This document shows, one piece after another, positions 3,657 to 61,889 of a stretch of DNA of 64,000 nucleotides. Source of the DNA: Clitopilus passeckerianus (Eukaryota; Basidiomycota; Agaricomycetes; Agaricales; Entolomataceae); assembly GCA_944990035.1 (NCBI GenBank), contig CALYLX010000066.1, positions 1,550,001-1,614,000 on the forward strand, in the 5' to 3' direction. The first letter of the stretch is position 1. Each line of letters starts with the position of its first letter. The notes under the pieces are model-generated. The model did no database searches and had not been told where the DNA came from. It saw nothing but the letters and a program-made list of their open reading frames with translations. The translations under genes were made by a program, and so were the position numbers.

Positions 3657-4355
3657 AGATACCAAACGCATGAACTATTCGTCGAGGCATTCGTTCAACG
3701 GACAATTCATATTACAATTTCTCGAGTAGCCTATTCATTCGTATACCCTCCTAATGCTACGAAATAGTCAATAAATATTCGCTTTCGATGCAATTCTGGA
3801 GTCACGAACTCTTGTTACACGACTATTCTAAAATAGCATCTTCTGCAGAATAAAGGCTTATAGAACCCTCATCAACGAGAAGGTACGTATCACGAATATC
3901 GAAGTGTGAGGTATCAATGATACTGTGTTGCCACTGGGGTCTCGTGCAATCTGCCTTGCTTATTCATTCCTCTACCATCCGTTTTGGCCTCGTACCGGGC
4001 TCAAAATGAACCATCCGCTTTACTGGTCACTCGTAGCCTCCAGGAACCCCGTCGTGACCAGGGCGTCCGAGACGCCGTCATTCCCTGTTTGGTCCGTCAG
4101 CCAGCGCCTAATACTGCTTCTGCCACCATCAACACGCCTTTGACGCGTGTTCTCCACAGTCTCAGGTGACAGGATATGGCACACATGATAGGTGTGCCAT
4201 GACAGCCACGGTGATATTGCCGGGCCTTGATATCAACCCGTTTTGTGCGTTGATCAATCTTCCTCCCTTCCCTTCCCTGGTCCCCCATCCGCTCGACCAA
4301 TTCGAGTCAGGTCGTCTCCCTCTCTGCTATCTCTCTAGCTAACTAGGCTGGGGTG
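3657..4355. other. Intergenic with small ORF and short hairpin
   Basis: Contains a 61-codon plus-strand frame at 3984-4169 with no recognisable features, and a 9-bp perfect inverted repeat (4176-4184 with 4192-4200, 7-nt loop). I could not join the ORF in frame to the gene starting at 4356. Confidence 0.4.
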
Positions 4356-5249
4356 ATGATGGATACGAAAGAAAGCTTGAACGGCGAGTTCGCCCAGGCG
4401 GCGCCCGTTGGTTTGGCCTTCTGTGCAAAGTCGCCCAGTGCTACGCCACACGAATGTGGCGAGAGCCTTTCTAGCCACACCAACCCCTCCAGTCCAGTAA
4501 GAAGGAGTCATCTACACTTATGACACCTTACTAGAGCGTTTTTAGTACTTGAAAAACATCTTGGACATGATTGAAAGTGTCAAACTCGCCGATACACTCA
4601 ATTGTGGCGACGTTCGCCACACAGGAGAAAGCATCATACCTTCTAATAATGACTCATTCCGTGATTCTCCTCGCAACGACCGATCCAAGAGGTATATCTC
4701 TGATGGTCCATCTGGTACGTAGTCGCCTAGTACGCAGACCGTCGACTAACCCGACGCTGACAGCGCCACGGCTGGGACTGGTACTCAACACGAACATCAC
4801 GTCCAAATTTGATTATTGTGGGGGAGATGGTGGCGTTCTGTCGCCAATTACTATTGATGAAGACACGATTTTTGACCTAATCCAATTCGAAGACGTCCCG
4901 AGTGAGTTCAAATAGGACTGATCTTGACCGGCGCCTAAACAACGACGCAGACGCCCAAGGGCCTATTAATGTGACCATTCCCAACAGTCCTCACATCGCG
5001 TCCATTTCCCTCCCTCCCAACCCAGCTGGAGACTTGTTTCTGCAGCCACTTCCACAAGTCGACGCCGATCCTCGTGGTCATTTCTCTCCCTTTGCTGGCA
5101 TTTCCCCGTTCCTTTCGCCGCTTATCATCATCCCTACGTCTCAGCGTTTCCCATCCGTTCCTTTGCCTGGATTAGACGCTTGCGCTGATAAGAATTGCTC
5201 TTGCTCCCTTGTAGGATTTGATACCGACAACTTCCTCATGCAGTTGTAG
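4356..5249 (+). CDS. Hypothetical protein, 248 aa, four exons
   Basis: Splicing by eye gives exons 4356-4496, 4546-4714, 4764-4901 and 4951-5249, 747 nt in total and open to TAG. All three introns are exactly 49 nt, GT-AG; the second has a clear CTAAC branch site. The protein begins MMDTKESLNGEF and has a Ser/Asn-rich middle. After an acidic stretch (DEDTIFDLIQFEDVP) comes a Pro-rich C-terminal region with FAGISPFLSP and CADKNCSCSL. No known domain is recognised. Recovery of an open frame across four exons is the main evidence that the gene is real. A perfect hairpin follows 43 nt after the stop. Confidence 0.62.
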
Positions 5250-5292
5250 AGACAGTGTGGTGGATTACACACATATACTATCTAAATACTAT

Positions 5293-5342
5293 CTTACAAG
5301 TTTCACTGGGTAGTATACCGCCTACCCAGTGAAACTTGTAAG
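5293..5342. repeat. Perfect 21-bp inverted repeat with 8-nt loop
   Basis: Arm 5293-5313 (CTTACAAGTTTCACTGGGTA plus G) is the exact reverse complement of 5322-5342; the loop is 5314-5321. It lies in the probable 3' UTR of the 248-aa gene. An RNA from either strand would form a stable stem. It could be an inverted micro-duplication, a 3'-end processing structure, or a small-RNA hairpin. Confidence 0.9.
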
Positions 5343-5574
5343 GTACATATTGATTCATTCTTGACACGATACCACTCAATTTCTTCGGTATGACTATCTA
5401 TATTCATTCGCATCTATACGTCACATATTCTACGACCTCTACTCAGATCCCAAACCAACCTGTACTAACGCGATATCAGTCACCAATGCATCGTCCCATA
5501 CGGGAAAGCTGTTACTAGGCGCACATGGGTGATATGTTCAGGGTGGTGATTCGTGACAAACATTTTAGGGAGAC

Positions 5575-36650: not shown

Positions 36651-37681
36651 GTGGTCAACACGTCCAAGAGTAGAGAGCTGTTGCGGCTGTTCCCGATCGG
36701 ACTTCCCACAGCTCGGCTAGCTACTTGGCGTTGTGTCGACAGCCGTTTCCCGTTTCAACCGCAGGATATCACTTTAAAGTGCTTTGACTCTTCCCTGTTC
36801 TCCGAAACCTATACCTCACTAAAGCCCTTCAATAAAGCTCTCTCACTGCAATTTCACCATGGGAGATTCGCCTGTCCCGCGGCACTTCAGCTCTACCTCG
36901 GGGATTTCACCTGCCTGGAGAACTTTGCCCTCGTATCCTGTACCTTTTCCGGATTTGTCCGATTCATCCCTTCGCAAGCTAATGCAAAGATCAACTTCTC
37001 GTCTCTTCGGCAACTTGATCTGGGCATGACCCTCAGGATCGATGATATACTTTCGCCACTTTTTGCGAGGCCGTGCCTCGTGAACACGCTTAAAATTCAT
37101 TGGGAGACCACACAGCTCGAGAACCGTGAACGAGATGCAGCTGTTGAGCTACTGCGCTACATAGGACCGGCCCTGAAATCGTTTTATTTGGACATCTCAT
37201 GCGATATCAGCTGGGGGAACGAAGTTCATTCCGAAAGTAAGGTCCCTACCTCGAAGTTGTTTGACTTTATACTGATACCGACTTATAAGACATCCCTTTA
37301 CGACTTAGTACCAACACCAACCTCACGTTCCTCTCTATTCAACCTATCACACTACCATTTGATCGCCGATACAGCTCTAGGTGGCTTAGGGGTCTCTTAG
37401 GATCGATCAACTCGGCATTGCTCCAAGAGCTAAGCATTTCATTTGTGCTCTCCTATACCCAACGCGACGAAATGGAACGTTTTTGGGAGCCATATTTAGC
37501 AAGCTTTGACTGGAGCTCAATCGACGATGTTATTACCTCAAACTCACATTTTGGGCAGTGGAAAGCGATAGAGATAGTTATCGGGAAGGTCGGAAAGGAG
37601 AATAGTATAGAGTCGGAGCTTAAGGCATGTCTCCCTCGATTAGATGCGAGTGGAAAGCTCACGGTGATCGCGGAAATCTGA
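36651..37681 (+). pseudogene. 5'-truncated F-box/LRR-like paralogue
   Basis: Two exons, 36651-37236 and 37290-37681 (53-nt intron), give 325 codons open to TGA. The sequence matches the middle and end of the F-box genes at 55-63 kb. Shared blocks include LRQLDLGMTLRIDDILSPLF, YIGPALKSFYLDIS, FDRRYSSRWLRGLLGSINSA, FDWSSIDDVITSNSHFGQW and a conserved intron position (codon split A/AC). The first roughly 100 residues, including the F-box (IPxEVQERI...CQHWY), are missing, and no upstream exon supplies them. It is probably a truncated duplicate; an alternative start with a shorter function cannot be excluded. Confidence 0.6.
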
Positions 37682-37783
37682 TGCCGTATAAACGGGGAGA
37701 AAGTGATCCAATTCTAGTATATATTTCGTTTTATACCAGAATGACGCGCTTTTCTCATTAAAAAGATCAAACTTCTCTGGATG

Positions 37784-37889: not shown

Positions 37890-38981
37890 TTTTGAGGGAG
37901 GGAATAACGAGGCCAAGAGTAGTGGTCACCAGAATGTGATAGTCCAGGATGTCCGATTTGACGTTTGTTCGGTCACGCCAAGAAATGGAATCGGATTCGG
38001 CAAGGGATAATTGAGAAAATCTGGAATTTAGCTTACGAGAGTCCTTCATCGTTTGAATGATGGATTTCAAGGCCAAACTTGCAGCAGATGCTAAGAACAA
38101 GTCGAAGAGGAGAGGGAATACGCAGGCGAGAGGCTGGTGATTGCTGAAGGATATCGTTGTTGTGGTCTGCTTGGCAATGGCTTTGACGGTTCTGGCTGAC
38201 GTTTTTGTGCTTACTCAGTTCGCCTCTTTCATCCCTGTGCACGTCTACCAAGCTCAGAATTCAGATTCTGCTTCAAGACCCGCTCAGTAGTTGGCGTCCT
38301 TACAATATCTTGGAGTATAAAGATTCCACAGCCCTAGAAACAGCTGGTCAGGCCAGTCGGCAGCTGGCGTTATTAAATCTGCGTACTACCTGGAGACACG
38401 CAAAACACAAACCTGTTTGCACATCGAGGACCCGGTCATGCCCAAGCTTCCAACTGGGGATCCTCGTCCCATCCTATGGAGCCTTCGTCATACCCGCAGC
38501 TATGTTTTGTTGTACTAGAAGGTGTGCGGTTCTCGAACGAGACCGCAATCGGGAGCAGCAAGCAAAGTCTCTGCCTTGGAAGGATATGGCGGCAGATTTC
38601 GTCAATTATTCCTAGGTGTAGTTAAGCTTGAAATAGAGTATATAGAGTGGATTTATAGGATTTCGTAGGCTCTTTGTGTACCTGTAATTGCTGGGCTAAG
38701 ACGACAACTGTCCACTTGATAAATGTTTGGTCAAGCTTTAGTTCAGGCTATTGGGTTTGGTTTGAGTTTGGTTTGAGTGTGGTTCACCATGGGTTGGTGG
38801 AAACCGACGTTGATCGCTTGATGGCATTCAATCTTTGATCAACCATTGTTGAACTTTTGTCTGGCTCTTGTGCAATTCTGTGAGATGTATGGTTCACCAT
38901 AGCTGGACTCTTTGGTCAACCACCACAAAATGCTAGTCTGAGAAAATTGAATAGGATCATCTGATCCTTGGGGTTTTCCTG
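37890..38981. other. Intergenic / left flank of the mobile locus
   Basis: Short open frames only (for example 38205-38615 plus). From about 38720 the sequence has repeated TTTGGT-type motifs (TTTGGTTTGAG twice, GTTCACCAT twice) that resemble inverted motifs at 54200-54320. Confidence 0.45.
38725..38935 (+). repeat. Subterminal repeat region, left end of mobile locus
   Basis: Contains TTTGGTTTGAGTTTGGTTTG and two copies of GGTTCACCAT. The opposite flank (54200-54320) has TTTGGTTTGGGTCTGGTCC and related units on the other strand. This fits subterminal transposase-binding repeats of a DNA transposon, but exact ends and a target duplication were not found. Confidence 0.4.
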
Positions 38982-38990
38982 TATATTTAA
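38982..38990 (+). promoter_or_regulatory. TATA box of the HECT-like gene
   Basis: GTATATTTAAG about 125 nt upstream of the ATG at 39113, with a pyrimidine-rich leader between. Good position and sequence. Confidence 0.55.
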
Positions 38991-39112
38991 GAACTCTGAG
39001 CTGGCAGTATTCGAACTCTCTCTTTTACTATTGCCTCTACTTGAACTATTCTTCGACATACCTTTCTCATTTCTTTCCGCTTAATCACCTTCCAAGCTAA
39101 TTTCACATTAAA

Positions 39113-42100
39113 ATGAACTTTGACGCTGACCAGCTTGTCCAAGCTCTTGCCCGCCTGGATCCTACCCAACTTCGAAGCATTCTGTCGTTTGCAACCAACG
39201 ACACTACTCCGCCTAACACCAGCACACCAGCTTCCTTGCAACAATCTGAGAGGAGCTCCTCTGTTGGGCTCCCCCCAGGCCTCCAGCGTATGCCTAATGC
39301 TAACCTAAGCATTAACTTGTCCACCCCACCAGAGACAAGCCATGCTAGCTCAAATATTTTGCCATACAGAAGGCCAACGGGTTCAGCAACACGTCCAACA
39401 GACAACAGTAGACAAGCTACACACCCTTTAACACAGGTGTCCCCGTCAGCTGTGCCGCAACATTCGAGTGCAGGCCCCAGACCTTTAATGCCCTTCCAGG
39501 GGCTTCGCTCTATAAGCTCGAATATAACAGCCCAACAGCCCAAGTCAACTCTCAGAGATTGAGATCTGCAGCTACAACTCTGCCACGACCCCCAAGCCTC
39601 AATACTAGGCAGTCAATCACTTCACGTGGAAGAAGAGGAGCACACACAAGAGGGCCTTCTATGCCTCTGCCTACTATTGCATCCAATGCCAATAGCTCTG
39701 TGACGCAGACATGCATCGGTCCCAACGGCAATCTAGAATTGGTGGTGCAGGTTTACCCTGCTAGAGTATGTGGTTCAGCTATGATATTGCATACATTATA
39801 CTAACAAAATGACGCGGTTTAGCCTGACGGGGTCATCACTGGTGGTGATATGTATGTGTATCATACTTTTAAGCAAACTTTTGCAGTGGTTTTAAGCCAG
39901 TACGGCCTTCTTTTCAATGACATCTCTCTTCCAACAACCACCTCCGTCCTTTCCCTTCTCAACGTAATCAAGGATAGAATGGAAGCAGCACCATTCTCCT
40001 ACCACTTTGAACCATCGCCTGTTCATGAAACTCTTTTCCATGAACATCATCCCTTGAGGCTTCTCCGTCTTGTCAACAGAGGGAGGCCAAGAGCAAGTGA
40101 TAACCAGATTTGACTGGTGCAGGCTGCTATCAATCCCAACTTTACTCTCTTGGACATGATGCAACACAATGACTACGCCAATCCTAGCTGCTGTATTGAA
40201 GGAAACAAGATGGTGATAAGACTTGGTATGATTTTCTATCCCTCTTACTCTGAGTACAAGTGAATCTAACTTTAACGCACTGTAGCTGTTGCTCATGCCC
40301 CTCTCATGGCTAGAGTAAACTTTAACTCTACTCCACCTACTCCTGGAGGTGCATTGCATAGCTGTATTCCTCAGCGTGTATATCTCCAAATGAGCTTCTA
40401 TGTCTTCCCCTCTTTGAGAACCGATGGTGGTTATCCAGATCCAGAGACTGGAGCCTTTGAAGACTGTAACAGCTGCAGCAATATAGCTCCACTGTCCCAC
40501 CCACCATTGCCTAGAAGAAGCAATCTGGTTAGTGCTTAGATGCAGACTTTTTCTGATAGTTACCTGACATGATTCATACTAGGCACCCAGGCCACAGGCT
40601 GTAGCTGGAAGAGTGTCCAGGGAAGACTATGCCATCTCTTCAAGGCCCGGTAGTGCAACCTCTTCACGCAGAGTCTCAGCGACTACATCAAGACTCACCT
40701 CCTCCTCGTCTAGAGCTCCTTCCACCCCTGTGGACACATCTGGTATAGATGCAGACATCTCTTCTGAAGACGACGTGCCCCCACCTTCAAGTTCTCCTAC
40801 CATGATTGTCTCGTCCCCCGTTATCCCCACCTCTCCAGTGCTGCCAGAACCAATAGACATTGTTCGAGAAGGTGCTATTCATCATGCCACATCAGCCATC
40901 TTATCTAGAGAAGCAACACTTCCTGTTCTCTGGAGCAATGATTGGGCAGAAACTAGAAGAGTACACATTTCTTCTGGAAACGTACCAGCTTTCGACTTCG
41001 AAGACTTCCCTTTCTGTGTATCAGATGCCGTGTCTAGAAATACCAGCAGGCCGTCACCAATGGTTCTCAACGGTACCGACGTAGATGATCTTGCCAGACA
41101 GCTGATTGTACGCATCGAGGCTGCTCTAGTTGAAGGCAACTTTGCCTCTATTCTTCACCAAGAGAGACGATACAACATTGTGTAAGTGACCATTTAATTG
41201 CAACACCTAGTGTACCACAAGCTGAATATTTTTTAGGGGACCCAGAGGGAATATTATCTCCTTGGGCGATGGTATTGAGAGAGAAGCAGCCTATAAGGCA
41301 TACAAGCTCTTTGCTGATGGTCACAAAGGCTTATTCTTAACTCCTCGCCTGGATGATCGTGCATCCATAGCTATTCAGGCGGCACCTGGCATGGAGAGAT
41401 GGGTTACTCAGCAACGCAAGAAAGACGTTCAAGTCTTTGGTGCTCTCACCGCACTGCTAATGGTCCTAAAGATGACACCAGATAAATTCTCGCCTCTTTT
41501 TCTTCACTGGATCATCCACGACAGGGACATCAAGGCTCTTTCGGAGGACTGCGTACAAGAATGGTACCCCAACCTATACCGAGCACTGAAAACTTGGCTC
41601 CAACTAAGCCACGAAGAAACCAATATCAGGACCTACTTGCCCTTATTTGGCGCTTGGATGGACCTTGAGGTAAGCCTACTTCGAGAACCATGTTGCCATA
41701 TTGAATATATTGTCTGATATTACTTATAGGCAGGTCATCTAGTTCCACGATCAAAAGAAATGCATATCCATCTGGCAGACCAGCTCTTATACAAGAGTAT
41801 TATTGGCAATTATCCCAGAGATCACCCAGAGGTTAGAGCATTTGCGTACGGTTTCGGTCTACCTTGTCGTAATGGCTTTGATTTCACAACGGTAAGTCAC
41901 TCATGTTGCCAGCATTCTTAGGTCTAACGGTTCTGCTTTTCTAGTATTTGCAAAAGATAACCGGAGGCTCTGATCTATTTCTGAGCTTACTCTGGACGAC
42001 CCACATCAAATCACCAGGAGACCTGCTGGAAAGCATGAATATTATCGAAGTTCCAGAGGAAGACTGGTCCTCCTGCAAAGGACACTGTGACAAGACATTC

Positions 42101-42592
42101 AGCGAGCTCTTCACTTCTTTTCTTGGGGGTACGGGTGCTCCTTGCCCATCCACTTTCGACACAGGACCATTCACCAACTGCATCAACTTTGACGACATCG
42201 ACCAGCCTTTTTTCAGGGCACGCATGTTTGCTTGGGCAGCCACAGGAGCCCCTTTTCTGCCATCTGCTGACGATAGCGAGAAAATCAAGGTACGGTGCTC
42301 AATTTAAACGCAAATCTAATTTCTGAAATTGTTGCAGATATCAGTCGTCGGTGACGATCATCCCTCTTTCAATGTCAACCATGATCCTGCTCTCACCGCT
42401 TTAATGGTCCAGCAAGGCAAGATTGCACTCAAGACATGCTTCAGAACAGTCTATCTGCCTCTTAGCTATCTGAAATCGTTAGCCACTAAGAGGTACGATG
42501 TAGCAGCCTCCCCTTCTTCCTTTGTCAACGCTTTTGAGGAATGGTTACTTCGCGAACTTCTTTCTGCTATCGGTGGGCACACAATACTCTAA
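39113..42592 (+). CDS. HECT-type E3 ubiquitin ligase-like protein of a mobile element
   Basis: Multi-exon gene. Exon 1 starts MNFDADQLVQALARLD and is Ser/Thr/Pro-rich; an 80-nt intron (39437-39516) restores the frame into LEYNSPTAQVNSQRLRS. Later exons carry VQVYPAR, PDGVITGGDMYVYHTFKQTF and a Ser-rich linker (40.6-40.9 kb). Then comes a HECT-like region: GPRGNIISLGDGIEREAAY; VQVFGALTALLMVLKM with SPLFLHWII and DRDIKALSEDC (N-lobe); TGAPFLPSAD; and C-lobe KTCFRTVYLPLSYLKSL, which aligns with the catalytic TCxNxLxLPxY. The active-site Cys codon is at 42437-42439. The final exon ends 120 bp from the convergent dioxygenase gene. HECT genes accompany integrase-type mobile elements in some animals, from memory. 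No lesion was found, though every junction was not proven. Confidence 0.68.
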
Positions 42593-42712
42593 ACACTTGT
42601 TTTTCATATCGTATACGTACATGTTTCTGAAATCTCCTGCATTTTTGATCCCTTTATAAACATTTTAATAGCTCTAATATTCCTACATATCTTTTTAATA
42701 AGTGTCTATAGT

Positions 42713-45678
42713 TCAAGCCAAATCCTTATGAGATGCCCGGCCATTACGATTAAGATACCACCTTTCAATTGCATTGTCCATGTGGAAAACTATGGATGAA
42801 CGATAGCCCTTGAAGTGTTCATTGTAGTGTGTGATCCTTGAGGAGTCAAAGCCGCTAAAGTCTCCATTGCGTAGAAGTAGAACCACACCTATCTCCTCCA
42901 GAACCACACCTCCTTCCTGGCACTTTGAAATGACAAGAAGTAAACAGAAGAACTTGTCCAACAAGTCTCTATGAGGACGCGTCGCCATATTGAAATTTAC
43001 GACAAGGCCAGAAAACGGATACGACAGAGGTAAGACGTGGTTGGGTAGAGTCGTTATACGTTCATTGAGCTCCGAAAATTGCACTGGAAGTACTTGCTCT
43101 GTCTATGAACGGGGTAAGAGCTATAATAAGACCAGCTTCTAAATGAAAAAGTGGGACTCACGATGTTACGTATCCATTGGAAAGCCTGTGACATTAGATT
43201 ATCCAAAGAATTGTATTCTTCCTGAAACTGTAGAAGTTCCTGAGAAGCTCTTGGAGTATACTCTGCGATACTACAGAGTCTTTTCTTTCTACTATCTTTC
43301 TGAAGTAGTTCGATATCTATGTCTTCAGGTGCATTATCTCCCTGGCAGTAAATGTTAGTACTAGTCTAGCTCAAGCATATCTAACTGACCGAAGTAGCGT
43401 ATCTGTTATAAATTGAAAAATGGACGGCCTGTGATATAGTACTTTCTCTTGCAAGCTGTGCGTCAACTAGCGTTTTTGAATCAACATCTTGAACCGTATC
43501 CTTGAAGATGCACTGGATGTCCGTCATTAGACTGCACCTCAGATCTTCCGGCATGGACGGGCACAGGAAGAAGATGAGGCCACCTTCTTTATCTAGCACC
43601 AAGAGTATTTGGCTAAACAGACCAAGCTTAGAACATATCGACATTATTGGAAATAACACCTACTTTTTCAGGATTTCAGGATTTAGGCGATAATATACGT
43701 CTGATGTACGCTTGCCAGTCTTTAAGGATTCCTGGAGCTACGTAAATAATTAGTTCAATAGTTTAAAAAGTGATGTATTAAGTGGCACTACCTGTTTCTC
43801 GAAATCATCCAATGTTTCTACATCCACAGCCTTATCTCGTACCTGGCTTCTCTTTCTTTCGCAGGTTGCTATCTCCTCCTCCAGATTACCTTTAGGGAAA
43901 GAGTACTTTGAATTTGCTTCTAGAGAGGGATCGTAACAGGTTTTGATGATACGAATTGTTAAAACCTGAGTTTCGAGTGCTCCTGAGCTGGTCATAGGAG
44001 AAAGGACCTGGTCCTGCCAAGAACTTCCAGCAACGATAGAATGGCTGCCCAAGGTAGTGACGTTTGCCATAGGCACTGGCACTTCCTGTAAGCAAGGGGC
44101 CCAAGCTTCATTACATCTAGAAGTGCAGAACACACTGAACGAAGGATTTATGGTCAGATAATAGAACATAGGAAACATGAAGTGCTCACTTCGTCAAAAG
44201 TTTTGAGAAGAATGCTTCAGTTTTCACTAGCTGAGAGCAACTTATGGCTAGGGCATTCTCATCGTAGAGGAGCAATATCTTTGTAGGTATGAGAGTCGAA
44301 AGGGGAATATTATAGGAGATTTGAAGATGGCGTATTGTTGGGATGAGGCGTTTCAGAACTTGATTCGCGCGTTCTCCTTGAATGACCATGAATATCAGAA
44401 TAAGGCTTTCAACATAACCCTTGATCTCACCTTTGCCTGGACTTCGTAGAAACCTGTTCAGGCTTTCTACTTCTCCCACATTCAAGGCTAGGTATCTAGA
44501 CTGCTGACGTTTTGCAGAAAGAACCATCAGCATGTATATGCTCCCTTCGAGGAGTAAAGGTTAAAAAGAGAATTCACTTAAGATGATCTTCTCACCTGAG
44601 TAGATGAGCTGAATCAATTTAGAACCATGCTCATTCCATTTTCTGAGAGTGGCTTCTTTCTTGGAACTGAGGTATTTGCGAAATACAGACGCTATGTTTG
44701 GAGTTGAATCATCATGGGCGATCATGCTACAGAAATGTATATCAGAAAGAAACCTCACGGCTCGATAAGATGTACTCAACTAGTTGACGATGAGATGGAA
44801 AATAATCTTATTAACCATTGTGTAAAAACAGACAACTCCGTCTGCACGTTCCACCTGTTCACAATTGGTAGCTGCTGTCACCAGATCGTCTTGAATAGAG
44901 GATGTGCCAGAGTCTCTAAAGGTGCCCAAAGTAATGCTCTCATTCTGGCCGAATAGCTCCCGAGCATGCCTAGAAACGTCAAGCTCCAGGCCAGAGTCCA
45001 TAACCATATTGACAAGACTTTCAGCATGGACACTCAAGGGGTTCTCTCGAGCCACGTTGGCGTTTACTACCCAGATCTCAGCACCTCTTCTACATGGAGG
45101 CCAGGCATGGGCAACTTGCGGCTGACCATTACCACCGGTAGATCTTCCTGGGTTTCGCCCTTTGCTGGAAGCATCTGAGTTTGTCTTTCGTCGTTTGGAT
45201 GGTCTGGAGCTGCCATCATCCAAGTCTACAAAGACAGAGTCCCCAGGTTGCAAAGCAGGAGTAAGAGTAGGAGAGGGTGTAGGAGGATAGTACTGCATAT
45301 GAGCGGAAGAGGGCAGCGGGGTTCCAGTTTGTAAAGGCGACAAAAGGGCGCGTGGCTCATGTGCTTGCGCCAAGTCATCTAGAGAAAGATGTTTGATATT
45401 CAGTAACTTACATAGATCAAAGGATGCATACCTTCATCCTCTTCTGGACCCTGAGTGGAGGGATAAGCCTGGTGATATGGTGGAGTATTACTCTCGGTGG
45501 ACTGGGGCCGGTCTTCCAGCAATGCAATACGCAGTGTTCTTCGGAGTCTCTCGAGCGCGTCGCTGATATCACTCACTTCATCTAAGTGGTCAAGAAGAAT
45601 AGAAATTTCACTGTGACTGAGGCTGTAGCCCATGTAATCCAGTGTCCCGAAAGTGACCAGCGAACTTGAAGTATACAA
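42713..45678 (-). CDS. Multi-exon protein with C-terminal TET/JBP-like 2OG-Fe(II) dioxygenase domain
   Basis: The likely start is MGYSLSHSEISILLDHLDEV (about 45633) or an upstream ATG at 45678. Exons include a nucleic-acid-protein-like linker (DDGSSRPSKRRKTNS), MVMDSGLELDVSRHARELFG, FRKYLSSKKEATLRKWNEHG, ALNVGEVESLNRFLRSPGKG and others; the junctions I checked keep frame. The last exon (42713-43084) encodes SGLVVNFNMATRPHRDLLDK, then GVVLLLRNGDFSGFDSSRITH and GYRSSIVFHMDNAIERW. This fits the fungal TET/JBP double-stranded beta-helix: HxD (His codon 42971-42973, Asp 42965-42967), distal His (42827-42829) and a 2OG-binding Arg (42800-42802). Family members oxidise methyl groups on DNA bases and often travel with fungal transposons. 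Substrate unknown. Confidence 0.62.
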
Positions 45679-46117
45679 GTGCTCCTAAGTTTCCTGAGTT
45701 GGCGCGTTTTCTGACGCGTTCAATGGGCGTGAGAATGCTTGAGACAACCATCTCACCGCGTATCATTTCTCTTAGCATGTCCCCTCAGCACTATGAAGTT
45801 CTCAGTGTGGAACATCGCTCATTTTTGCAAGATCGAAACACAGTAGAGAACAAAATGAAGTAGGTTCCTCCACACTTGACGTTTTGGGAAAGTCGGTTGA
45901 TTGACGAAATGCCTGAAGGCATAACCGGGTCCACCCAGCACGCTGTTCGCCTTCCAAATTCGTGATGTTCGCGAAGTTCTCGTGCACCCCCGCGTCTGGT
46001 GTACAATTCTCAATATCCAGGCAAAAAGAGCGGTCGTTTGGACTTATTGGGAGGCTATCGGTGTTATTTAATGTGTAGGGTGGATTGCGAGGGCCAAGTG
46101 GAGGGAATCCCTAGGAT
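45679..46117. other. Spacer between dioxygenase gene and cyclin remnant
   Basis: Upstream region of the minus-strand dioxygenase gene. Only overlapping short frames occur here, with no gene supported. Confidence 0.4.
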
Positions 46118-47830
46118 TTGGGTGCGTCTTTTATCCTTTTCGTTCAAAGGTTCCATTCTAATGTGACTACCATTAGAACGCAACCTCTCTCTGGGCAACT
46201 CACAAGTTTACGACCTTCACGTCACCATTATCTCGCAAATCACGACTGCACGGCCTCGTTTGCGGCACCGAGAGCATCACCTTTCAGCAACGCCAATAAC
46301 TCCTATCCTCACCAACCACGGCCTATCACACCCTCAAGCGACGTTCCACACCTTCTACATCAACTTGGCAGTCCTCAAACTCACAACAGAGGTGGCATAT
46401 CTATGCTAACTCAATCGTTGATGGTATATAACCCCACCCATATCATGAAACCACCGGCCGTCCATGAAGACCTCAAATACCGGCCGTCCCTCCCAAGCAT
46501 AACCTCGGTAATGCGCCACGGAGTCGTTATACTGCTGTTCCACCCACTGTGAGCTCTCTGACACCTTACCATTAAGCGCTCGGGCTGAACTTGTGAAGAA
46601 TAATTCGTCCAGTGTTAACCTTCCTCACGGCTCAGATCTTTTCTACGATCACAATGAGTTCGCTCGATTGAGCGCTCGTTTCATGACACACCTCTGCGCC
46701 TGCCTGGAACTCCCTCCCGTCGCCACTCACCAGAATGCACGCCTCCCACTCTTCATCGCATATATGCTCCATCGGACTAAACTCAACCCATGCGTGTCTA
46801 TAACTGCCCTTGTCCTTCTGCAAAGGCTGAAGGCTCGATTCCCCACTGCTCGTGGTTCATCAGGTCATCGACTTTACATTTCTGCGTTTATGATTGCCTC
46901 ATAGGTGATATGTGACGATACCTATTCGAACAAATCCTGGGGCATCGTTGTGCAGGGCATGTTCTCGCTGAGAGAGATCAACCAGATGGAATGCGAGATA
47001 TGCAGGTATTTGGAGTGGGAGTTGAATGTTGACAATACGATGCTCACGACCTTCGAGACGAAGCTATGGAGACGAAGCTACGGAAGGATTTCGCCAGCCC
47101 CGATGGCCCTTACCCCACATACCCTCTCGTGATGGTGTAGAAACGTGCAGCTCACACAGCAGCAACGGCTTCGACATCATCATCACCGTCCAACACACGT
47201 CCGGTCCCACTCTCGCCCTCACAAAAACCCGCTCCACCAATGGTTTCCGTCCCTCCACTAGCACCTATTACCCAGCACCTGCCGCCAACAATCATCAACC
47301 ACTCCCGACAATCCCTCGCCATCATCCTCGAACACAACGTCTCCCACCTCATCAGGATTGCAGGCGACTCCTGTGGGTGGCGAGGTTTACAACCCACAGG
47401 TCAAAACTTTCGATTGGCCACTGGACTTCATGCTCTCAAAAGAAGACCTCCCACCGATTCATCCCCTCAAAGGCCAGATGTACGCTATGACCGTCCCTTC
47501 GACATAGTAGCACCTATACCCAGCACCTACCGCCAACAATCACCCTCGTGGTGACTTCTGTGGGAGGAGAGGTTTACAACCAGCAAGCCAAAACTTTCGA
47601 TTCGCCACTGAACTTCAGGCTATCAAAAGAAGAACTCCCACTGATCCATCCCCTTAATGGCCACCTCTTTGACTTGGTAGCATCTGCCGCTGACCACCAC
47701 CGACACTCCCTCGCCATGGTTCTGGAACGTCATCTAATGCCAAATGACACACCAGCCTCAAAACTCACAAACCAGTCTAGAACCTCAAGTGAGTCATTTC
47801 CCCCAAATCTGATTAGAGCCAGAACCTGAT
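46118..47830 (+). pseudogene. PHO80/PCL-like cyclin pseudogene with duplicated C-terminal segments
   Basis: The Ser/Pro-rich N-terminal part (46118-46552) is followed by a recognisable cyclin box: FARLSARFMTHLCACLELPP, LPLFIAYMLHRTKLNPCVS, RLKARFPTARGSSGHRLYIS, AFMIAS then TAG at 46902-46904 where family members have Lys, then VICDDTYSNKSW and FSLREINQMECEICRYLEWE. The frame is otherwise the same before and after the stop, so this is a point lesion. The C-terminal tail appears twice in tandem: VGGEVYNPQVKTFDWPL-type at about 47350-47480 and VGGEVYNQQAKTFDSPL-type at about 47550-47650, in shifting frames. A further tail-like copy lies at 48250-48430 inside the HSP70 remnant. Confidence 0.72.
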
Positions 47831-48064
47831 AGGCAACTTCAGTCTGTAGTTGACGACCTGGCGAGAACACCAGTCAAATTGCCGGTTTTGGTGTTTCTCT
47901 CCGGCCCACTTTCGTGCTCCAACTACAAATTCAAATTTATGTACGTGTGCAGGCACATGTTGTATTCAAATTGTCCTAACTTGACCTCGTTTCTTCTAGT
48001 CTCCCCCGCAAAACAAACGCCTGTGAGTTTGTAGTGGAAGGACCGACCACCTGCGTCAACAAGA

Positions 48065-50152
48065 ATGTCAAAAGGAGCACAAACAACACCATCTGTTGTC
48101 ACCGTCATGAAACACAATGAACATTGTGTTTGTCTACTCGTCAAGCACCTGGCTGTCGTCATGAACTCTGCCAACACCGTCTTCGCATCTGGGTTATCAA
48201 TTGCTCGCAACCTTTCTGACAAGGAGGCCAAGCTGGTCCTTGATGTCCTCCCCATCGTCGACTTCAGCTTTGGCTTTGGCATCATCATCACCGTCCAACA
48301 CAGGTCCCATCCCACTTTCGCTCTTACAAACGCGCACTCCAGCAACGGTTTCCATCCCTGCACCAGCACCTATCCCCAGCACTCGCTCCCAACAATCACT
48401 GACCATCCCCGACACTCCCTCATTGTTGTTCTAAAACCTCTTATTGAGCTCCTACGAAACCACGTTCCCATTCAAATGATAAGGAGGTCAAGGGAGATCA
48501 AGCACATTGGTAGGTTTTCTCTCACTCCTTACGTTTTCACATCTCTTACCATCATAACATAGGCTCTTCGAGCTTGTGCCCGCACTCGATAGTCGACCAG
48601 CTGTAGAGGTTGAAACCAATGGCAAGCTGCAGACTTTGGTCCTCTAGTCAGCAGAGGTCCTCACCGAGCTGCAGCAGATCACTGAGCAGTACCGGAATAA
48701 GAAAGTGAAGTGAGTCAGCCTGAAATTTTTGACCAGAGCTTGAAACTAATGGAAAATCTTAGCTGTCATCACAGTGCCAGCTTACTTCAACGACATTTCG
48801 ATCCTTGAGCTGCAAAAGGGTGTATTCAAGGTCAAATCTACCAACGGTGATACTCATCTTGGTGGTGAAGATTTTAACGTCGTTCTTGTTGAACACATTC
48901 TGGCCGAGTTCAAGAAGACCGATGGCGTCAACCTCTCTTCCAACCACATGGCAATTCAGCGTGTACGTGAAGCCGCCGAGAAGGCCAAGATCGAGCCGCC
49001 GTCAACCACTTAGGCAGAAATCAACTTGCCTTCCACCACTGCCGACGCACCTGGCCCCAAGCACATCAACCTCAAGCTTATGCGCTCCCAGTTCGAGTCT
49101 CTTGTCAGCCCCTTGGTTCAACGCACCGCTGACCCCTGCAAGAAGGCTTTGTCAGATGCTGGTGTAAAGGCTAGCGATATCAACGAAGTCATCCTAGTCG
49201 GCGATATGAGCTGAATGCTCAAGGTTGTCGACACCGTCAAGACCGTTTTCGGCCGTGAGCCCAGCAAGGATGCCAACCCTGATGAGGCTGCCGCTACCGG
49301 TGCAGCCATTCAGGGTGGTGTGCTGGTCGGCAACGTCACTGATATCCTTCTTCTCGACATCACACCCTTGTCCCTCGGTATCGAGACCCTCGGTGGTGTT
49401 ATGAAGTTATGACCAAGCTCATCAACTGTAACCGCGACACCACCATCCCCACCAAGAAGTCCCAGACCTTCTCTACCGCTGCCAATGGCCAGACTGCCAT
49501 CGAGGTCAAGATTCTCCAGGGTGAACGTGAAACTTGTCCGCGACAACAAGCTGTTGGGTAACTTCAACCTTGTCGGTATTCCCCTGCTCCTAAAGGTGTC
49601 CCCCAGATTGAGATCACCTTCGACATCGACGCTGGTAAGTCTGACACGCCATGTAATGCTTTCTTCATTTGACTGAATTTTTCACTCTAGAGAGTATTGT
49701 CAATGTCTCCACCAAGGACAAGGCCACCGGCAAGGATCAATCTATGACCATTGCTTCCACTTCTGGTCTCTCCACCAAGGACATCGAGCGCATGGTCGAC
49801 GAGGCTGACCAGTACTCTGAGACCGGCAAGGCTCGCAAGACTCTTATTGAGGAAGCCAACAAGGCTGACTCGGTCTGTGCCGATACCGAGAAGGTCATGA
49901 AAGAGTTCAAGGACCAACTTGATGTCGCCAAGAAGGAGAAGGTCACCAAGCACATCGCTGAGCTCAAGGAGCTCGCCGTCAAGGGACAAGCTGGTGATGC
50001 CACCATTACCACCGAGCAGATCCGCGAGAAGAACAACAAGACTCAGCAAGCATCTCTCGGTCTCTTTCAGAAGGTCTACGAGAAGCGCTCGGCCGAGAAC
50101 ACATTGTCAGAGCAAACATCTGAGCAGCCTAAGGAGGAGGAGAAGGATTAAG
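48065..50152 (+). pseudogene. Mitochondrial HSP70 (SSC1-type) pseudogene
   Basis: Fragments follow the order of mitochondrial HSP70. GAQTTPSVVTVMKHNEH and NSANTVFAS mark the N-terminus, then a cyclin-tail-like insertion (48250-48430), [22 protein letters not shown] and [19 protein letters not shown]. Between AYFND and ISILE about 65 residues of the ATPase domain are missing. Stops replace residues at 49011-49013 (TAG) and 49212-49214 (TGA, after GDMS). Frameshifts follow GGVMKL (49410). An intact-looking last exon (STKDKATGKDQSMTIASTSG to KEEEKD, stop 50150-50152) encodes the substrate-lid region. Multiple independent lesions mean no functional chaperone. The parent gene would act in the mitochondrial matrix. 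Confidence 0.85.
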
Positions 50153-50158
50153 GATTAA

Positions 50159-50623
50159 ACGTCCTGACACCCTGACTGTTGTGCTTTCGACCCGTCTCTT
50201 GCAGCATCATTGACATCGTCGATATCGTCCTCTCGTTGTCCTCGGCACCATGCGCTTTCATTACTTATTGGCTTCCCTATTGCATCATGTTTTACTAACA
50301 AAAAGTAGACTTCACGAATCATATACACATTATATTACTACCTGCTACATAGCTACTACATCCCACTGTCAGTTGTAATACAACTAATAGATCAGGTTTC
50401 CTGGTTCTTGATCGTAATGACCCCAACAGTGATCATGGTGCATGGTATCGCAGTGGTATAGATCCTCCTTCCAGCACAGGAAGGTGCCCTTCTTTTTTAT
50501 ATCGGAATTCTAATAGAAAGGGCAGCTCTTTTTCTTGGGAAAACAAATGTCGTCTTTATAGTCAGTCTTGATATGCATGGATTGCAAAATTTTGATTCCT
50601 ACTAATTAAAATGTGTTATTTCT
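50159..50623. other. Spacer downstream of the HSP70 remnant
   Basis: AT-rich, no gene. It contains the 3' flank of the pseudogene and the 3' flank of the convergent integrase gene. Confidence 0.5.
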
Positions 50624-52605
50624 CTAAAATAATGATGGTTCTATTTCACGTAAGTAAGTCAACGATTGAACCCACAATTGCACAACCTGCTCCTCATCAG
50701 TATTCCATCGCAAGTGTTGAATATGAGCTTCTAAGTTTTCCACCGTCTGGGGATCCAAAGGTGCATTTGGAATGTCAACAGCCACTTCGTTGAGGTTTGG
50801 AGGAGGTCCACCTCTTCTGAACCAGGTGTCATCTCCATCATCTTCGACATTGCGCCCATGAGACTCCAAAAGGCTACGGTTCTCCAAGCCATCCCAATCA
50901 ACCCCATAGACCTCAAGCTCCTCATCAGTCATGTCGCCATCTCCCAATTGTTCCCCGTGCACACCATGCACTAGCATGCCAAGCCCCCACATAGCAATAG
51001 GAGACTGATTAGGAGCATTACGTAGATCCATCTTATGCTCATTCCAACTTTCCTTGAACAACTCTAGGAGAGCATTGATTTGGGGAAGAAAGAGGTACTG
51101 TAGGAGCCATCTGTGGCAATCATTGTTGACATCCATGGCGTAGTCTTCCTCCAGCATGACAAAGTGATTATACCATGTCGCAGTTACCTGAGCAGTGACA
51201 TCTACCCAGAGACGCTCTATGCGTACATTGTGAATGCTTCTGTTATAAGTAAATTATATATATATATCAGTAGCGTAATTTTGAGAATGCTTGCCTTCCC
51301 CAGATGTAAGCTCCTTTCTCAGGCCCATACCTCTCCTCCATCCAAGCGGCAACATAGAGGTTTTCAAGACCATGATCTCCTCTGAGACGAGATGGGATAC
51401 CAAAGGTCGTGCTTGATTCCAGGAAAAGATGAAGCACCGTATCCGCCTTGTTATTGTTACTTGCTCGCAGACCCGTGATCAGGCGAGAATATCCATCAAT
51501 AAACCCATGTATAACGATTCCCCAACGAATGAGACCTATAAAATGTAAGCAATAATTCAGCAAAATCTGTGATAATAACCTTACGGTGTTGTCCATCATG
51601 GTGCCACAATGCATTTGGCCCAGCAACCTTGTACTCTCTTCTTCTGATCCTAATCCTCTGAAATACTCTGTGGACGGGGTCGACACGCCTGAGAGAGTCA
51701 CTAATTCTCTGTCTGCTCAGGCGATGGCCTAACCGGCTCAATAACCCCTGCATCATCCTCAAACCAGCGCGCCTGTAGTGCATCTTGAGATTCCAGACAA
51801 TGTCGTCTAACTGGGAGTCAGATAGCACAGAAAGCTCTTCAGCATTTGTGATTTCTAGGATTTCCTCTAGGGCACCTTCGAGGGCTGGATCTGGATCTGG
51901 ATCGAGTAAGGGGTCTATGACTGTATTGTCTTCGCCACTAGGAGCTTCCAAGATGTTATCGTTAACTTCCTGGTCTACTGTGGATAAATTTCAGATCAAA
52001 TCAAAACATGATACTTGAGTTTCTCTTACAGATGTTCTCATCTATTTCTAAGTCCTCTGATGGGAAAGGTTTTCTCCCTGGCCTCACAATTCCATGATGC
52101 AGTAAAGCTGATCGTAGAGTTGTGCGTCCCACTCCAAGAAACCTTGCTAACGCTGACTGTGAAAGATGTTGTACTGCCCATGCCAGAAATTCTGGGTCAA
52201 ATTCATATCTAGGTCGGCCGGGTCTCCCAGATTGAATACTTTGGATGACTGTTGGCCTTTCTTGATGAGCTTCATGGCGTATAGCATCCAATCTTATCTG
52301 CATGTCTAATTTCATCATTGCAGTGCTGTCATGCAGCGACTGAAGGTCTTCAGGCTCAAAGATAGCTGCATACTGTGTTCGTTGAGCGAACTAAAGTCCC
52401 AAGGCTCCGATATAGGTATATTTCTCACCTGATCTACGATAGCAGTATAGGTGCTAATCTCTTGAATTGTTCGTTCGATCAGAATTGGATCATGAGATCC
52501 CAAAAAGTAATGTTCCACTTTTGATTTCAAGCTTTCATGCTGTTCTTTAAAGGCATTCAAAAGCTCAGCTAGCAGATGTGGAGAACTAGGTACAAGGGAC
52601 GCCAT
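50624..52605 (-). CDS. DDE integrase-core transposase-like protein
   Basis: Start at 52605 (MASLVPSSPHLLAELLNAFK) or ATG 52623. Splicing by eye joins IVDQ to SLHDSTAMMKLDMQIRLDA, then a helix-turn-helix (LSQSALARFLGVGRTTLRSA), DENI to LDQEVNDNILEAPSG, a second helical DNA-binding-like region (LSRLGHRLSRQRISDSL), and the integrase core: ALWHHDGQH|RLIRWGIVIHGFIDGYSRL, LESSTTFGIPSRLRGDHGLEN, and SIHNVRIERLWVDVT. Candidate catalytic D, D and E lie in HDGQH, RGDHGLEN and RIERLW. The exon before SIHN ends with a GC donor (GC-AG intron). The C-terminal tail is acidic (GDGDMTDEELEVYGVDWDG) and ends at 50624. All junctions tested stay open. Similar integrase proteins are multi-copy in fungi and animals, which fits a transposase. 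Confidence 0.8.
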
Positions 52606-52612
52606 TAGATGA

Positions 52613-52798
52613 ATGGATGTCAAAGAGCAGCTGAAGCCTGAAAATTCTCAACTCAATCAGTTCAGTTACCTCCGAGGCGAGCCAAACAACGACAATTGCT
52701 TCTGCCAAGCTTTTGTCCCTTACTTTGAACCACAAGCTCGGACTCTCGCTACAAATCACCGTCATTTGAACAACTGCAGCCAGATTATTGAGGTAAGA
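52613..52798 (+). other. Open reading segment with Cys/His pattern, possible upstream exon
   Basis: The plus frame MDVKEQLKPENSQLNQFSYL continues to DNCFCQAFVPYF and ATNHRHLNNCSQIIE, then a GTAAGA donor. The C-x-C...H-x3...C spacing loosely resembles a BED-type finger. It did not join in frame to the gene at 52852, so it is either a separate short exon or chance. Confidence 0.25.
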
Positions 52799-52851
52799 AA
52801 TTCCTTTCAGAAATTAAAATTCTACCTTGAATTAGTGATACTCTTTTAGAA

Positions 52852-54100
52852 ATGGCGATGACTACTACTCAAATTTCATGCACTATCTTTATACCGGATA
52901 CCTTCCCTGACTCGGAGCCTTGCCACCACACATTCTTCAATATCCTTGTCCTCAGTCATCTGGTTGCTGAGCGCTCAAGTTGCTGTACCTCTGTCAATGT
53001 GGCCACTCTCTTGCACGCCATCAAGCAGGAGTCACAGCAGTCTCTACCAAAGACAGTCCGTAGCCTCATAGCTAACGAACTCAGTGGAGTCCAAGTTTAC
53101 ACGGGAAGAAGTATGGACTATGCAACGCTCAAGAAACCAGAGTCAGGCTATCGCTCACTAGGGGAGTATTCATGCATACCTCCTACTCCAATATCTCCCA
53201 ATGCCACTTTCAATGCCCAAACGGAAGTCCTCTCAGTGGACAGCGAACTAGACGGAGTACGGAAGTTTGCAAGAACCTGGGAACCAACGGGGCTTCTAAA
53301 CTTGACAACACACTATGTACTAGTGTGCGCTATAGAACAAGAAGGCTCTCTAGCAAACGGAACCCCTTACAGAAGCACACCGCCTCATTTATTTCCTACA
53401 GATTCCAGAAGCACACTTTCATCTCTGACGGCACACTCCTCATCCTACTCTCAGCAGTCGGCTATATCATCCAACCTTTCCCTCCATACCCATACAAATC
53501 AAGCAACGTCTATCACAAGCCTTCTCAAGGAATCTCATGTATCAGAGGCAGATTTAGAAGGCGCACGGATTGCGAAAGGAAACAAAGGTCCCGGTTCATC
53601 CCTCTTTGCAATGCTAAAAGCCTATTACTGCATGAAGCATATCATTGATGCCCTAGGATTCATCACATATGCTAAAATGCCACCTAAACTGGAGCACGAA
53701 GTGGTCACATGGCATAACGTTCCGTTACGTTTCAACTCAGTCCTGGAGGAATTTGGTTGGTCCTCCAAAACTTTTACCAACAAACTTGTTTGGTATACAT
53801 GGGCAGAGAGGGTAGCTATACGTAATTGGAGAGGGACGGCTCCAGGTGTGTTGTCAACAGCTTGACTAGTTATAATTTGCTCATTGAACCCGTCTAGTAT
53901 TGGACGAAGAACCTGTGCTCTATAATCTGTATAGGGTTCATAGGTCTATCAATTTCATTTGGGGTCCTCAAGGGTCATTAAAGTCTGGGATTCCCCCAAG
54001 AGAAGATTCAACAAACAGAGCAGAGGTTGAGGCATCTAAACTCACTCAGCAAGATGTTTCAAGATATCGTTCGTCTATAGAAAATTACTTAGAAAATTGA
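52852..54100 (+). CDS. Hypothetical mobile-element protein, 398 aa, two exons
   Basis: Exon 1 is 52852-53845 and exon 2 is 53898-54100 (52-nt intron); 1197 nt open to TGA. The protein starts MAMTTTQISCTIFIPDTFPD and has a Cys/His-rich stretch (DSEPCHHTFFNIL, SSCCTSVNVATLLHAIKQES). A Ser/Thr-rich linker (residues about 175-225) follows, then a helical part (SLFAMLKAYYCMKHIIDALG) and an aromatic segment (LEEFGWSSKTFTNKLVWYTW). No domain recognised. It is divergent from the integrase gene and next to the right-hand motifs, which suggests an accessory gene of the element. The start is the first ATG after an AG acceptor-like site, so an upstream exon is possible. Confidence 0.55.
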
Positions 54101-54199
54101 GTACCAATATACCGTATTATTGACACATTCTATATAATACTTTCATGGATGCCTATTATCCTCAAAGCTTAGATTTGACTTGAAATACTCTATGTTCCT

Positions 54200-54320
54200 T
54201 GAACGTACCTGAACCAAACCCAGATCAGACTCAGACCAAACATGGACCATACTTGGACCAGACCCAAACCAAATGCAGACCATGCCTTCCTGCCTTTAAA
54301 CCAAACACCATGGTTTTTCA
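54200..54320 (-). repeat. Subterminal repeat region, right end of mobile locus
   Basis: The minus strand reads TTTGGTTTGGGTCTGGTCC, TATGGTCC, TTTGGTCTGAG and GGGTTTGGTTC, related to the left-flank TTTGGTTTGAG units and facing the other way. It also has AACCATGGTGTTTGGTTT. This supports an inverted subterminal repeat pair, but a base-exact terminal inverted repeat was not established. Confidence 0.4.
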
Positions 54321-55198
54321 CCTTGAAGTAAGGGATACTATTCAGCTGTACTAGCAGCCCACTTTATATGGTAGATTCTACGACCAAAATAGGCTGTTTT
54401 ACAACACTCCGATCACACAAAATGCATATTTTCCAAGCCTAGGAATATTTGACGAAATCTGCCGTCATAGAAGGAGGTATGCGTGCCAATCCACTGGGTC
54501 TCCGCTAATACTAAGCAAGAGCTTTTCTCCAGATCGTCGACGCGTCTATCAGAACCCACCCGACATTCATGCTGAATTTCTGTCGTTAGTGCAAAAAACA
54601 CGCGGTTTGGTGGGGCCAGATGTTGTGACGGGGTTTTGATGCCAGAAGGACAACGTCTAGGTTCTTCCATGGTCAACTACTCTTCGTAAGCTTCCTTCAA
54701 GCGTTAGGTCTTGAGGCCTGTTTCCGACAATGTTTGGTTACAGGAAACGGCAAGGCGGAATCATCAACGTAACCCATGCACTCGGAAGCCCTCACAGAAC
54801 GGCGGCCGACTCTACTACCCCTCCCACTTTACGAAGAGCCAAGGATATTGGGAGGACGCATCATCTACAGAGGGCTCCCGATTGAAGCACGAAGGCTGCC
54901 ATAGCCATACACCAGTGACATATGATTCGGGAGATGAGGCGATCCGTGCTTTCGGGACTCATGAGGGTGTATCTACAATGTATGTAGACACCGCATAAAC
55001 CTTCTTTATTATCCGCTATTTTACACTAGCTGTCGATTTCTGGTTTTATCATTGCAAAGCACCATGTATGCTGTATATTTTCAATGGAAATGTCCACATG
55101 ACCCATATGATACGGTAAACGCCGCCTTGCTCCGGCGTAGCTTCGACTCAACAGACGCCATCATCCGCGTAATAACTCTCTACCACTCACGATTAGGG
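54321..55198. other. Intergenic, no convincing gene
   Basis: Contains an 87-codon minus frame (54413-54676) and a 95-codon plus frame (54711-54998) without recognisable domains, plus the upstream region of the F-box gene. Confidence 0.35.
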
Positions 55199-60728: not shown

Positions 60729-61889
60729 CCGGCTTTCACCTACCTACAGAATTACGCCTTTATGTACTGCACCATTCTTTCAACTACTGGAAACCCACAC
60801 ATTAGCATCAAAACCAGTCTTCCATCGCTCCAGCGACTCGATATAGGGATGACCCTCGGGATCAACAGTATCATCTCGCCTTTGCTCGGGAGTCCTCGTC
60901 TTGTGGACACTCTTAGAATTTCTTGGTCCTCTCTAGCACTCGACGATCGCGAGCTTAGTGCAGCGGCCGATCTATTGCGTCACGTAGGATCAACACTAAA
61001 AAAATTCTATTTGGACGTCTCAGCCTACATCGGTTACGGAAACGAAGCTAGCTCGGAGAGTGTGTACCTACCTTTATGTTTTACTCTTTACTGATCTGGA
61101 CCTCTAAGACATCCCTTTACGACTTACCAACAATATCAACCTGACATTCCTGTCCGTCCGATCCATCTTTGTACCATTCTATCGCCGCTACGCCTCCAAG
61201 TGGCTCAGGAGTCTTCTTGGATCGATCAACTCCCCATTCCTCCGAGACCTACGTATCGAATTCCTCCCCGACTATACTGACAGCGACGGCATAGAATGTT
61301 CTCTGGAGGACTGTTTCCAAAACTTTGACTGGAGCTCAATTGACGATGCTATTACCGCAAACTCACATTTTGGGCAATGGGGGACGATAGAGATAGTTGC
61401 TGAGGAGGTTCCTAAGGGGAGTGGTATGGATTCAGCGTTGAGGGCGCACCTCCCTGGATTGAATGCAAGTGGAAAGCTTGTCATACTGAAAATCTGATGT
61501 AGAAATAATGAGTGGCGAGGGATCTCTTTCTTCGGATAGATACGTACCGCGATACCGTTCTATTGCGCTTCCTCTTAGGATGTATCGTATTTTCTTTAAT
61601 TGTAAGATGAAAAAAGTCAAATCGATTTTCCCGCTCGAGGTCCTATGTGGGCACATAACAGCGCGATCCATTCCATCAAGATGCTTAATATCGAGGCCCG
61701 GAAAAAGGAAGTTAGCAATAATCTGGGTTCGTACCTGTTGCCATCTAAAGTATGACATCTTCGAGATTGCCGAGCGCCACATTGAGGCGGGCGCCATCGA
61801 TTGAACCCATGACCTGGCAACCTCACAGATAGGATAAGCCTGGGTTCAACGTCGTCCAGGAACTTTCATCAAACCTCCTAGGATTCGAG

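Follow-up and report, generated by a model that had tools for sequence, protein, structure and literature searches.

Four genes clustered in the mushroom Clitopilus passeckerianus, one for an integrase and another for a dioxygenase resembling TET/JBP enzymes, raise the question of whether they travel as a single mobile element and, if so, of what kind. They lie in a stretch of 64,000 nucleotides (assembly GCA_944990035.1, contig CALYLX010000066.1, positions 1,550,001 to 1,614,000), called the window here, to which all coordinates without a contig prefix refer. An earlier note had described positions 38725 to 54320 as a candidate element. Based on DNA searches of the 64.8-Mb host assembly (160 contigs, the window being on contig C66) with the window, and on direct inspection of the junctions, the four genes form one mobile element occupying 38585-54469 (15,885 bp), which moves the ends given previously outwards by ~140-150 bp on each side. 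We consider it very probable that this element is an IS3EU-like DNA transposon of the cut-and-paste type, residing in an agaricomycete and working in the manner proposed below. Its boundaries are the following:

38579-38584, no strand: left copy of the target site duplication (TSD), GAAGGA; both flanks are equal, and a single copy is present at the empty site on contig C67
38585-38616, plus strand: left terminal inverted repeat (TIR), 32 nt, beginning TATGGCGGCAGATTTCG; 94% complementary to 54438-54469, with equal ends in all three full-length copies
54438-54469, minus strand: right TIR, defined by its complementarity to the left repeat and by the full-length copies
54470-54475, no strand: right copy of the TSD, GAAGGA, equal to the left copy

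At the junctions the left flank, CCTTGGAAGGA, gives way to the element, which reads TATGGCGG at its left and CCGTCATA at its right end and is followed by the right flank, GAAGGAGGT. The empty site on C67 reads CCTTGGAAGGAGGT, with GAAGGA occurring once (C67:50079-50084) and both gene pairs missing. Both flanks continue on C67 with a 6-bp overlap, the nearest 584 and 531 bp being 99.7% and 99.6% identical, and the left flank can be followed at 97% identity over 1.8 kb. The insertion is probably heterozygous in the host, because these C67 flanks are 99.6-99.7% identical and the element is missing there; C67 would then represent the other haplotype. Both haplotypes seem to be represented in the assembly as a whole. 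The TIR core (up to three mismatches) was found at two places in the window, compared with a mean of 0.01 in 100 shuffles, and a whole-window scan for inverted ends that start with TA (14 nt, two mismatches at most) and have equal 6-bp flanks returned a single pair, the element ends. TA..TA termini with inverted repeats, here 32 nt long, are a feature of IS3EU/GingerRoot elements. Outside the element, the sequence to its left at 37002-37683 recurs at 60825-61499, ~24 kb away, with 69% identity, and is probably a local duplication.

Inside these ends lie a left gene pair (large gene and dioxygenase) and a right gene pair (integrase and 396-aa gene):

39113-42592, plus strand: large gene, read earlier as HECT-like; 1025 aa in the gene model of the C8 copy
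42338-42592, plus strand: last exon of the large gene, as read from the sequence, with the motif TCFRTVYLP (candidate HECT catalytic Cys)
42713-45633, minus strand: TET/JBP-like dioxygenase gene; two gene models, uncertain in the middle exons and at the start, give 719 and 795 aa
42716-43102, minus strand: dioxygenase core exon with HRD (HxD), distal His (THYN) and Arg (GYRSS); Tet_JBP match at E 5.7e-5 on the exon alone
50624-52605, minus strand: DDE integrase/transposase gene, 589 aa, five exons with one GC-AG intron (51240-51294); curated model, PF24764
52858-54100, plus strand: 396-aa gene, two exons, by model; matched in the three element copies only

Two further full-length copies, C156:296505-334058 and C8:419710-441805, carry the four genes inside the same termini. 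The C156 copy is 99.5-100% identical to the window copy in three pieces and is broken by nested insertions; the C8 copy is more diverged from the window copy and is also interrupted. All three copies are flanked by 6-bp target duplications (GAAGGA in the window, GTTATG in C156 and GAAAGC in C8), and the joined flanks of the C156 copy have an uninterrupted match on C77 at 83% identity. Among the best candidates scored in the genome, matches to the large, TET-like and 396-aa proteins are confined to the three copies of the element, and no separate host homologue of any of them was found at E <= 1e-3. PF24764 integrase sequence is present at four more places (C144, C80, C126 and C66:694.8 kb), giving seven integrase loci of which three carry the gene set; the 9 and 8 kb surrounding two of these four yielded no pair of ends starting with TA. 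The nested insertions measure 7.2 kb in C8 and 7.2 and 14.5 kb in C156 and are all members of a single repeat family (C8:434001-441220, C156:297135-304338 and C156:317144-331622), one of the C156 insertions comprising two inverted copies. Their 7.2-kb units carry ~466-bp terminal repeats, and the family is most likely one long terminal repeat retrotransposon.

The four genes are shown to be one mobile unit: they share one terminus pair and a 6-bp duplication, are missing from the C67 empty site and are present as both gene pairs in three copies. The unity that the earlier note had proposed is therefore borne out, and its call for repeats of the unit and for exact ends was answered by three full copies, 32-nt TIRs and 6-bp duplications. 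The divergence between the window and C8 copies is uneven in a way that two elements lying side by side, one with the HECT/dioxygenase genes and one with the integrase, might produce: noncoding identity is 94.2% in the left half (to ~46.85 kb) and 74.0% in the right half (from ~50.2 kb), and synonymous divergence (dS) is 0.08-0.11 versus 0.40-0.46. Such an arrangement is nevertheless highly improbable, since both halves lie within one TIR pair and one 6-bp duplication in all three copies, the C67 site lacks both, and no further TIR core or TA-type end pair was found in the window. Separate termini for the two blocks, named in the earlier note as the sign of two elements, were looked for in the three copies and were not found. 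The step itself falls within 46.9-50.2 kb, a decayed stretch with captured host Hsp70 sequence between the gene pairs of which the earlier note had made no mention:

46472-47515, no strand: sequence that is either captured or dispersed, called cyclin-like from inspection alone, with DNA matches on C133 and C97
48012-50407, plus strand: decayed fragment of a captured Hsp70 gene (HSP70 E 1.1e-17 for 49657-50148; DNA match on C133)

The Hsp70 stretch matches the DNA of an Hsp70 gene at C133:264.8-267.2 kb (411-aa open frame) at 70-88%. The cyclin-like piece is a dispersed multi-copy sequence (C133:175164, C97:370036 and C97:421619, 85-90% identity), and a Pfam scan of the frames in 46472-47515 gave no cyclin match. 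Recombination between family members inside the decayed stretch is the simplest reading of the divergence step, and explains it better than two adjoining elements do. On this reading the left and right gene pairs may be exchangeable cassettes of different ages.

The ratio of nonsynonymous to synonymous divergence (dN/dS) between the window and C8 copies was 0.15 in the large gene (over 693 codons that exclude exon 1 and most of exon 2), 0.20 in the TET-like gene (645 codons), 0.09 in the integrase (580 codons) and 0.14 in the 396-aa gene (388 codons). Codons of the TET-like gene were taken from eight segments with the frame chosen by fewest stops; stop codons were skipped, and a recount found none in C8. 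Because the ratios range from 0.09 to 0.20, purifying selection between copies appears to have kept all four genes. The C8 copy has no stops in the aligned exons of any of the four, and the two frame-changing gaps in its 396-aa gene seem to offset each other, the first exon being open. The earlier note had taken the large gene to be open in the window, where an 8-bp tandem duplication near 39525-39540 in fact shifts the frame of the first exon; this duplication is missing from the C156 copy, and in C8 the gene is open over 1025 aa by model.

Repeats close to the termini and a set of short relatives further characterise the family. The repeats are as follows:

38751-38776, plus strand: left subterminal repeats TTTGGTTTGA, of which two have a spacing of 11 bp; motif counts at the ends versus the interior
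54231-54305, minus strand: subterminal TTTGGTYTGR-like repeats of the right end, inward-facing; motif counts

Allowing one mismatch, TTTGGTYTGR occurs four times within 450 bp of each end, with eight copies facing inward and none outward, versus four times in the 14,985 bp between the two 450-bp ends. The inward motifs reported earlier at both flanks are thus genuine, although they are subterminal and not the element ends, the TIRs lying outside them. They are likely to be transposase-binding sites, presented on one face of the helix. Genome-wide, the TIR core (up to two mismatches) has 37 matches, versus none for the reversed pattern. Beyond the full copies, 11 regions were sampled, comprising seven facing pairs, three regions with a single end in the stretch covered, and one on C72 that was left out of the pairs. 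The seven pairs span 704-897 bp, are 86-99.6% related to each other, and all have the termini and the subterminal TTTGGT-type repeats, mostly 11 bp apart on one arm. Because these termini and repeats match those of the element, the short pairs look like its non-autonomous derivatives. In the C72 region (C72:278380-279072), a single left-hand end faces two right-hand ends spaced by 51 bp, and the flanks are GCAATG/GCAATA (5/6 equal); this arrangement may reflect two subfamilies of short derivatives.

The integrase protein matches PF24764 with an E of 4.2e-70. The catalytic residues D, D and E claimed for it earlier are present as D301, D358 and E393, 34 residues separating D358 from E393, and the HHCC pattern is absent. 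Two introns of the curated model, including the GC-AG one, were placed by eye so as to join family motifs, in preference to the exons that a splicing program had computed. Counted from an inferred start codon, the first catalytic D is residue 301, the range for IS3EU/GingerRoot being 100 to 300 residues from the N-terminus. A scan of viral contigs with the integrase gave no relative. The gene beside it, described earlier as spliced and encoding 398 aa, does exist, with a modelled length of 396 aa; the protein has no Pfam matches, its first exon gave no match in a protein search, and an AlphaFold model of that exon had a predicted local distance difference test score (pLDDT) of 32. Elsewhere in the genome, at C126:720001-728000 (locus L046), another PF24764 integrase gene and an HxD dioxygenase-like frame lie ~2.3 kb apart (590-1525 and 3832-5426 of the locus). 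The frame has a weak 2OG-FeII_Oxy_3 match (E 0.017) and no element ends were found at this locus, which is possibly a second association of integrase and dioxygenase.

IS3EU elements are characterised by TA..TA termini, a usually 6-bp TSD and no HHCC (PMC10045372). TET-bearing IS3EU were reported in December 2025 from rusts and the truffle Tuber indicum (Kojima 2025, PMC12730594); according to that paper, all carry an alpha-kinase gene, and they have a 6-bp TSD, a TIR over 30 bp, TAYGG..CCRTA ends and a TET gene flanked by the transposase on one side and by a gene of opposite orientation on the other. The present element resembles them in its 6-bp TSD, TIR over 30 bp, TA..TA ends and DDE transposase, and in a TET/JBP gene that has this same position and is oriented as the transposase, as in three of the families published there. 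It differs in its agaricomycete host, in showing no alpha-kinase match and having instead the large gene and the 396-aa gene, and in a dioxygenase that has HxD (not the PE type) and lacks the AG-type Asp337. By its termini, TSD length, gene layout and absence of HHCC, the element appears to fit the IS3EU kind. The distinct element class suggested in the earlier note is accordingly not supported, since the features tested fit IS3EU and members carrying TET/JBP genes had already been published (PMC12730594).

Other transposons share part of this content. Kyakuja, Zisupton, EnSpm, Plavaka and Helitron2 are given as TET carriers in Agaricomycotina (PMC12730594). The KDZ group (Kyakuja, Dileera, Zisupton) resembles the element in bringing TET/JBP cargo in a fungal DNA transposon and differs in its transposase and target sites, Kyakuja having 7-bp TSDs without TIRs and Zisupton 8-bp TSDs (PMC12730594). 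Four further sites in the host genome, with alleles possibly among them, exceed the Tet_JBP cut-off. Polinton/Maverick elements encode an integrase of the retroviral-like superfamily and span ~15-20 kb. The element resembles them in integrase and size range. It also shares their 6-bp TSD (PMC10045372), and differs in the four genes found and in its short TIRs starting with TA. We rejected a Polinton on finding no Pfam match to a DNA polymerase, capsid, packaging ATPase or protease among the pieces scanned.

Tet_JBP is the sole Pfam match of the TET-like protein at E up to 1 (E 6.3e-7) and lies at its C-terminus, with a score of 29.2 bits that lies below the curated cut-off of 34.9. Its PHRD, THYN and GYRSS are ordered as the HxD, distal His and Arg of Tet_JBP readings from the host, an order common to other 2-oxoglutarate (2OG) oxygenases. 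The earlier assignment to the TET/JBP type thus stands as regards these residues, the domain match falling short of the curated threshold. In hhalign the protein scored 29.2 against a profile of three host Tet_JBP readings, compared with 20.5 for the best of 60 shuffles. Because the HxD oxygenase frame of L046 also scores 23.5 against the same small profile, this comparison is better evidence of kinship with oxygenases than of TET identity. Of the published types PU, AG and PE (PMC12730594), AG enzymes have the equivalents of Gly/Ser331 and Asp337 in CcTET numbering, and PE enzymes have HxE replacing HxD. The element's dioxygenase has HRD and an Asp at His+5, and where Asp337 would be it shows Leu in the ungapped comparison or Cys in the aligned one; a host Tet_JBP reading in locus L059 has Ser and Asp at the AG-type positions. 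The enzyme is TET/JBP-like and fits neither the AG nor the PE type. Its score under the Pfam cut-off, the Cys or Leu replacing Asp337 and a comparison unspecific enough for the L046 frame to exceed the shuffles would all suit a non-TET/JBP 2OG-Fe(II) oxygenase acting on protein or RNA. We regard this as rather unlikely, in that no other Pfam family matches at E up to 1 and the protein outscores the L046 frame over a host Tet_JBP alignment that takes in the HxD, the distal His and the Arg. A protein database search with parts of the TET-like gene found no match among the ~8,000 best candidates scored, and parts of the large gene found no homologues there or in scans of viral contigs. The empty database searches are weak evidence of rarity, because the database is taken to hold few spliced fungal proteins.

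The large gene had been called a HECT-like ligase with its catalytic Cys. The motif TCFRTVYLP lies ~50 residues from the C-terminus and could alone arise by chance; it aligns to TCFNRIDLP of a host HECT, with an hhalign score of 16.6 that 7 of 20 shuffles exceeded. The protein, whole and in pieces, has no HECT profile match and no Pfam match at all at E up to 10, and a PDB sequence search at E up to 10 returned no HECT chain. An AlphaFold model of the last exon was unusable (pLDDT 53). A semiglobal alignment to the HECT profile scored under the shuffle mean, with 74 of 150 shuffles as high, and was discounted, its free ends having favoured a 25-residue overlap; when the whole profile was required the alignment was borderline, its separation from an integrase control being too small for proof. 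HECT identity is thus not demonstrated. It is a plausible if tentative idea that the gene encodes a true but strongly diverged HECT ubiquitin ligase by which host proteins of silencing or repair are removed; against it weigh the absence of Pfam and PDB matches and of homologues, the shuffles that outscore the host HECT alignment and the unusable model. The open-licence literature (main texts, among the matches listed) held no paper joining HECT with such an element. With no statistical backing for the HECT label, ubiquitin transfer, the middle member of the earlier combination with base oxidation and an integrase, is unproven.

Several observations weigh against a working IS3EU transposon with these functions. 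Neither the large gene, which stands beyond the TET gene where the published elements have their alpha-kinase, nor the 396-aa gene has a Pfam match to an alpha-kinase, the gene that all published TET-bearing IS3EU carry (PMC12730594). The left end, TATGG, fits the TAYGG published there, and the right end reads TATGACGG, which does not. The dioxygenase scores below its Pfam cut-off. An empty site for the C8 copy was not found in the host assembly, and an exact 6-bp duplication flanks only three of the seven short pairs, being absent in four. Every copy is also damaged: the window copy by the 8-bp duplication in the large gene; the C156 copy by a frame-changing gap in the TET-like gene and by two nested insertions, one of which, by position, interrupts exon 1 of the large gene while the other sits at an integrase exon edge; and the C8 copy by a nested insertion in the intron of the 396-aa gene.

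We propose that the integrase, with its helix-turn-helix-like N-terminus and DDE core, would bind the subterminal TTTGGTYTGR array and join the ends, which start with TA, to target DNA cut with a 6-bp stagger. The dioxygenase would most likely counter host silencing by oxidising methylated bases in the DNA of the element itself, an anti-silencing role having been proposed for TET genes of fungal transposons (PMC12730594). The large gene, which may encode a strongly diverged HECT ligase, and the 396-aa gene would be helpers kept by selection, and recombination between family copies would leave the left and right gene pairs differing in age. A bolder version, which we consider unlikely, is that a mushroom IS3EU lineage has joined two means of countering silencing, a further kind of TET/JBP enzyme acting on methylated DNA and a HECT-type ligase that takes the place of the rust elements' alpha-kinase and marks a host silencing or repair protein for destruction, with the 396-aa helper kept and the gene pairs swapped as cassettes.

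The element appears to extend TET-carrying IS3EU to mushrooms, with another set of helper genes, and its exact ends, empty site and short derivatives make mobility and the requirements in cis testable. The swapping of gene pairs, together with the difference in helpers between an alpha-kinase and the large gene, would offer a means of asking which host silencing steps such elements must defeat. If the HECT identity proved true, DNA-base oxidation and protein degradation would be linked in one parasite.

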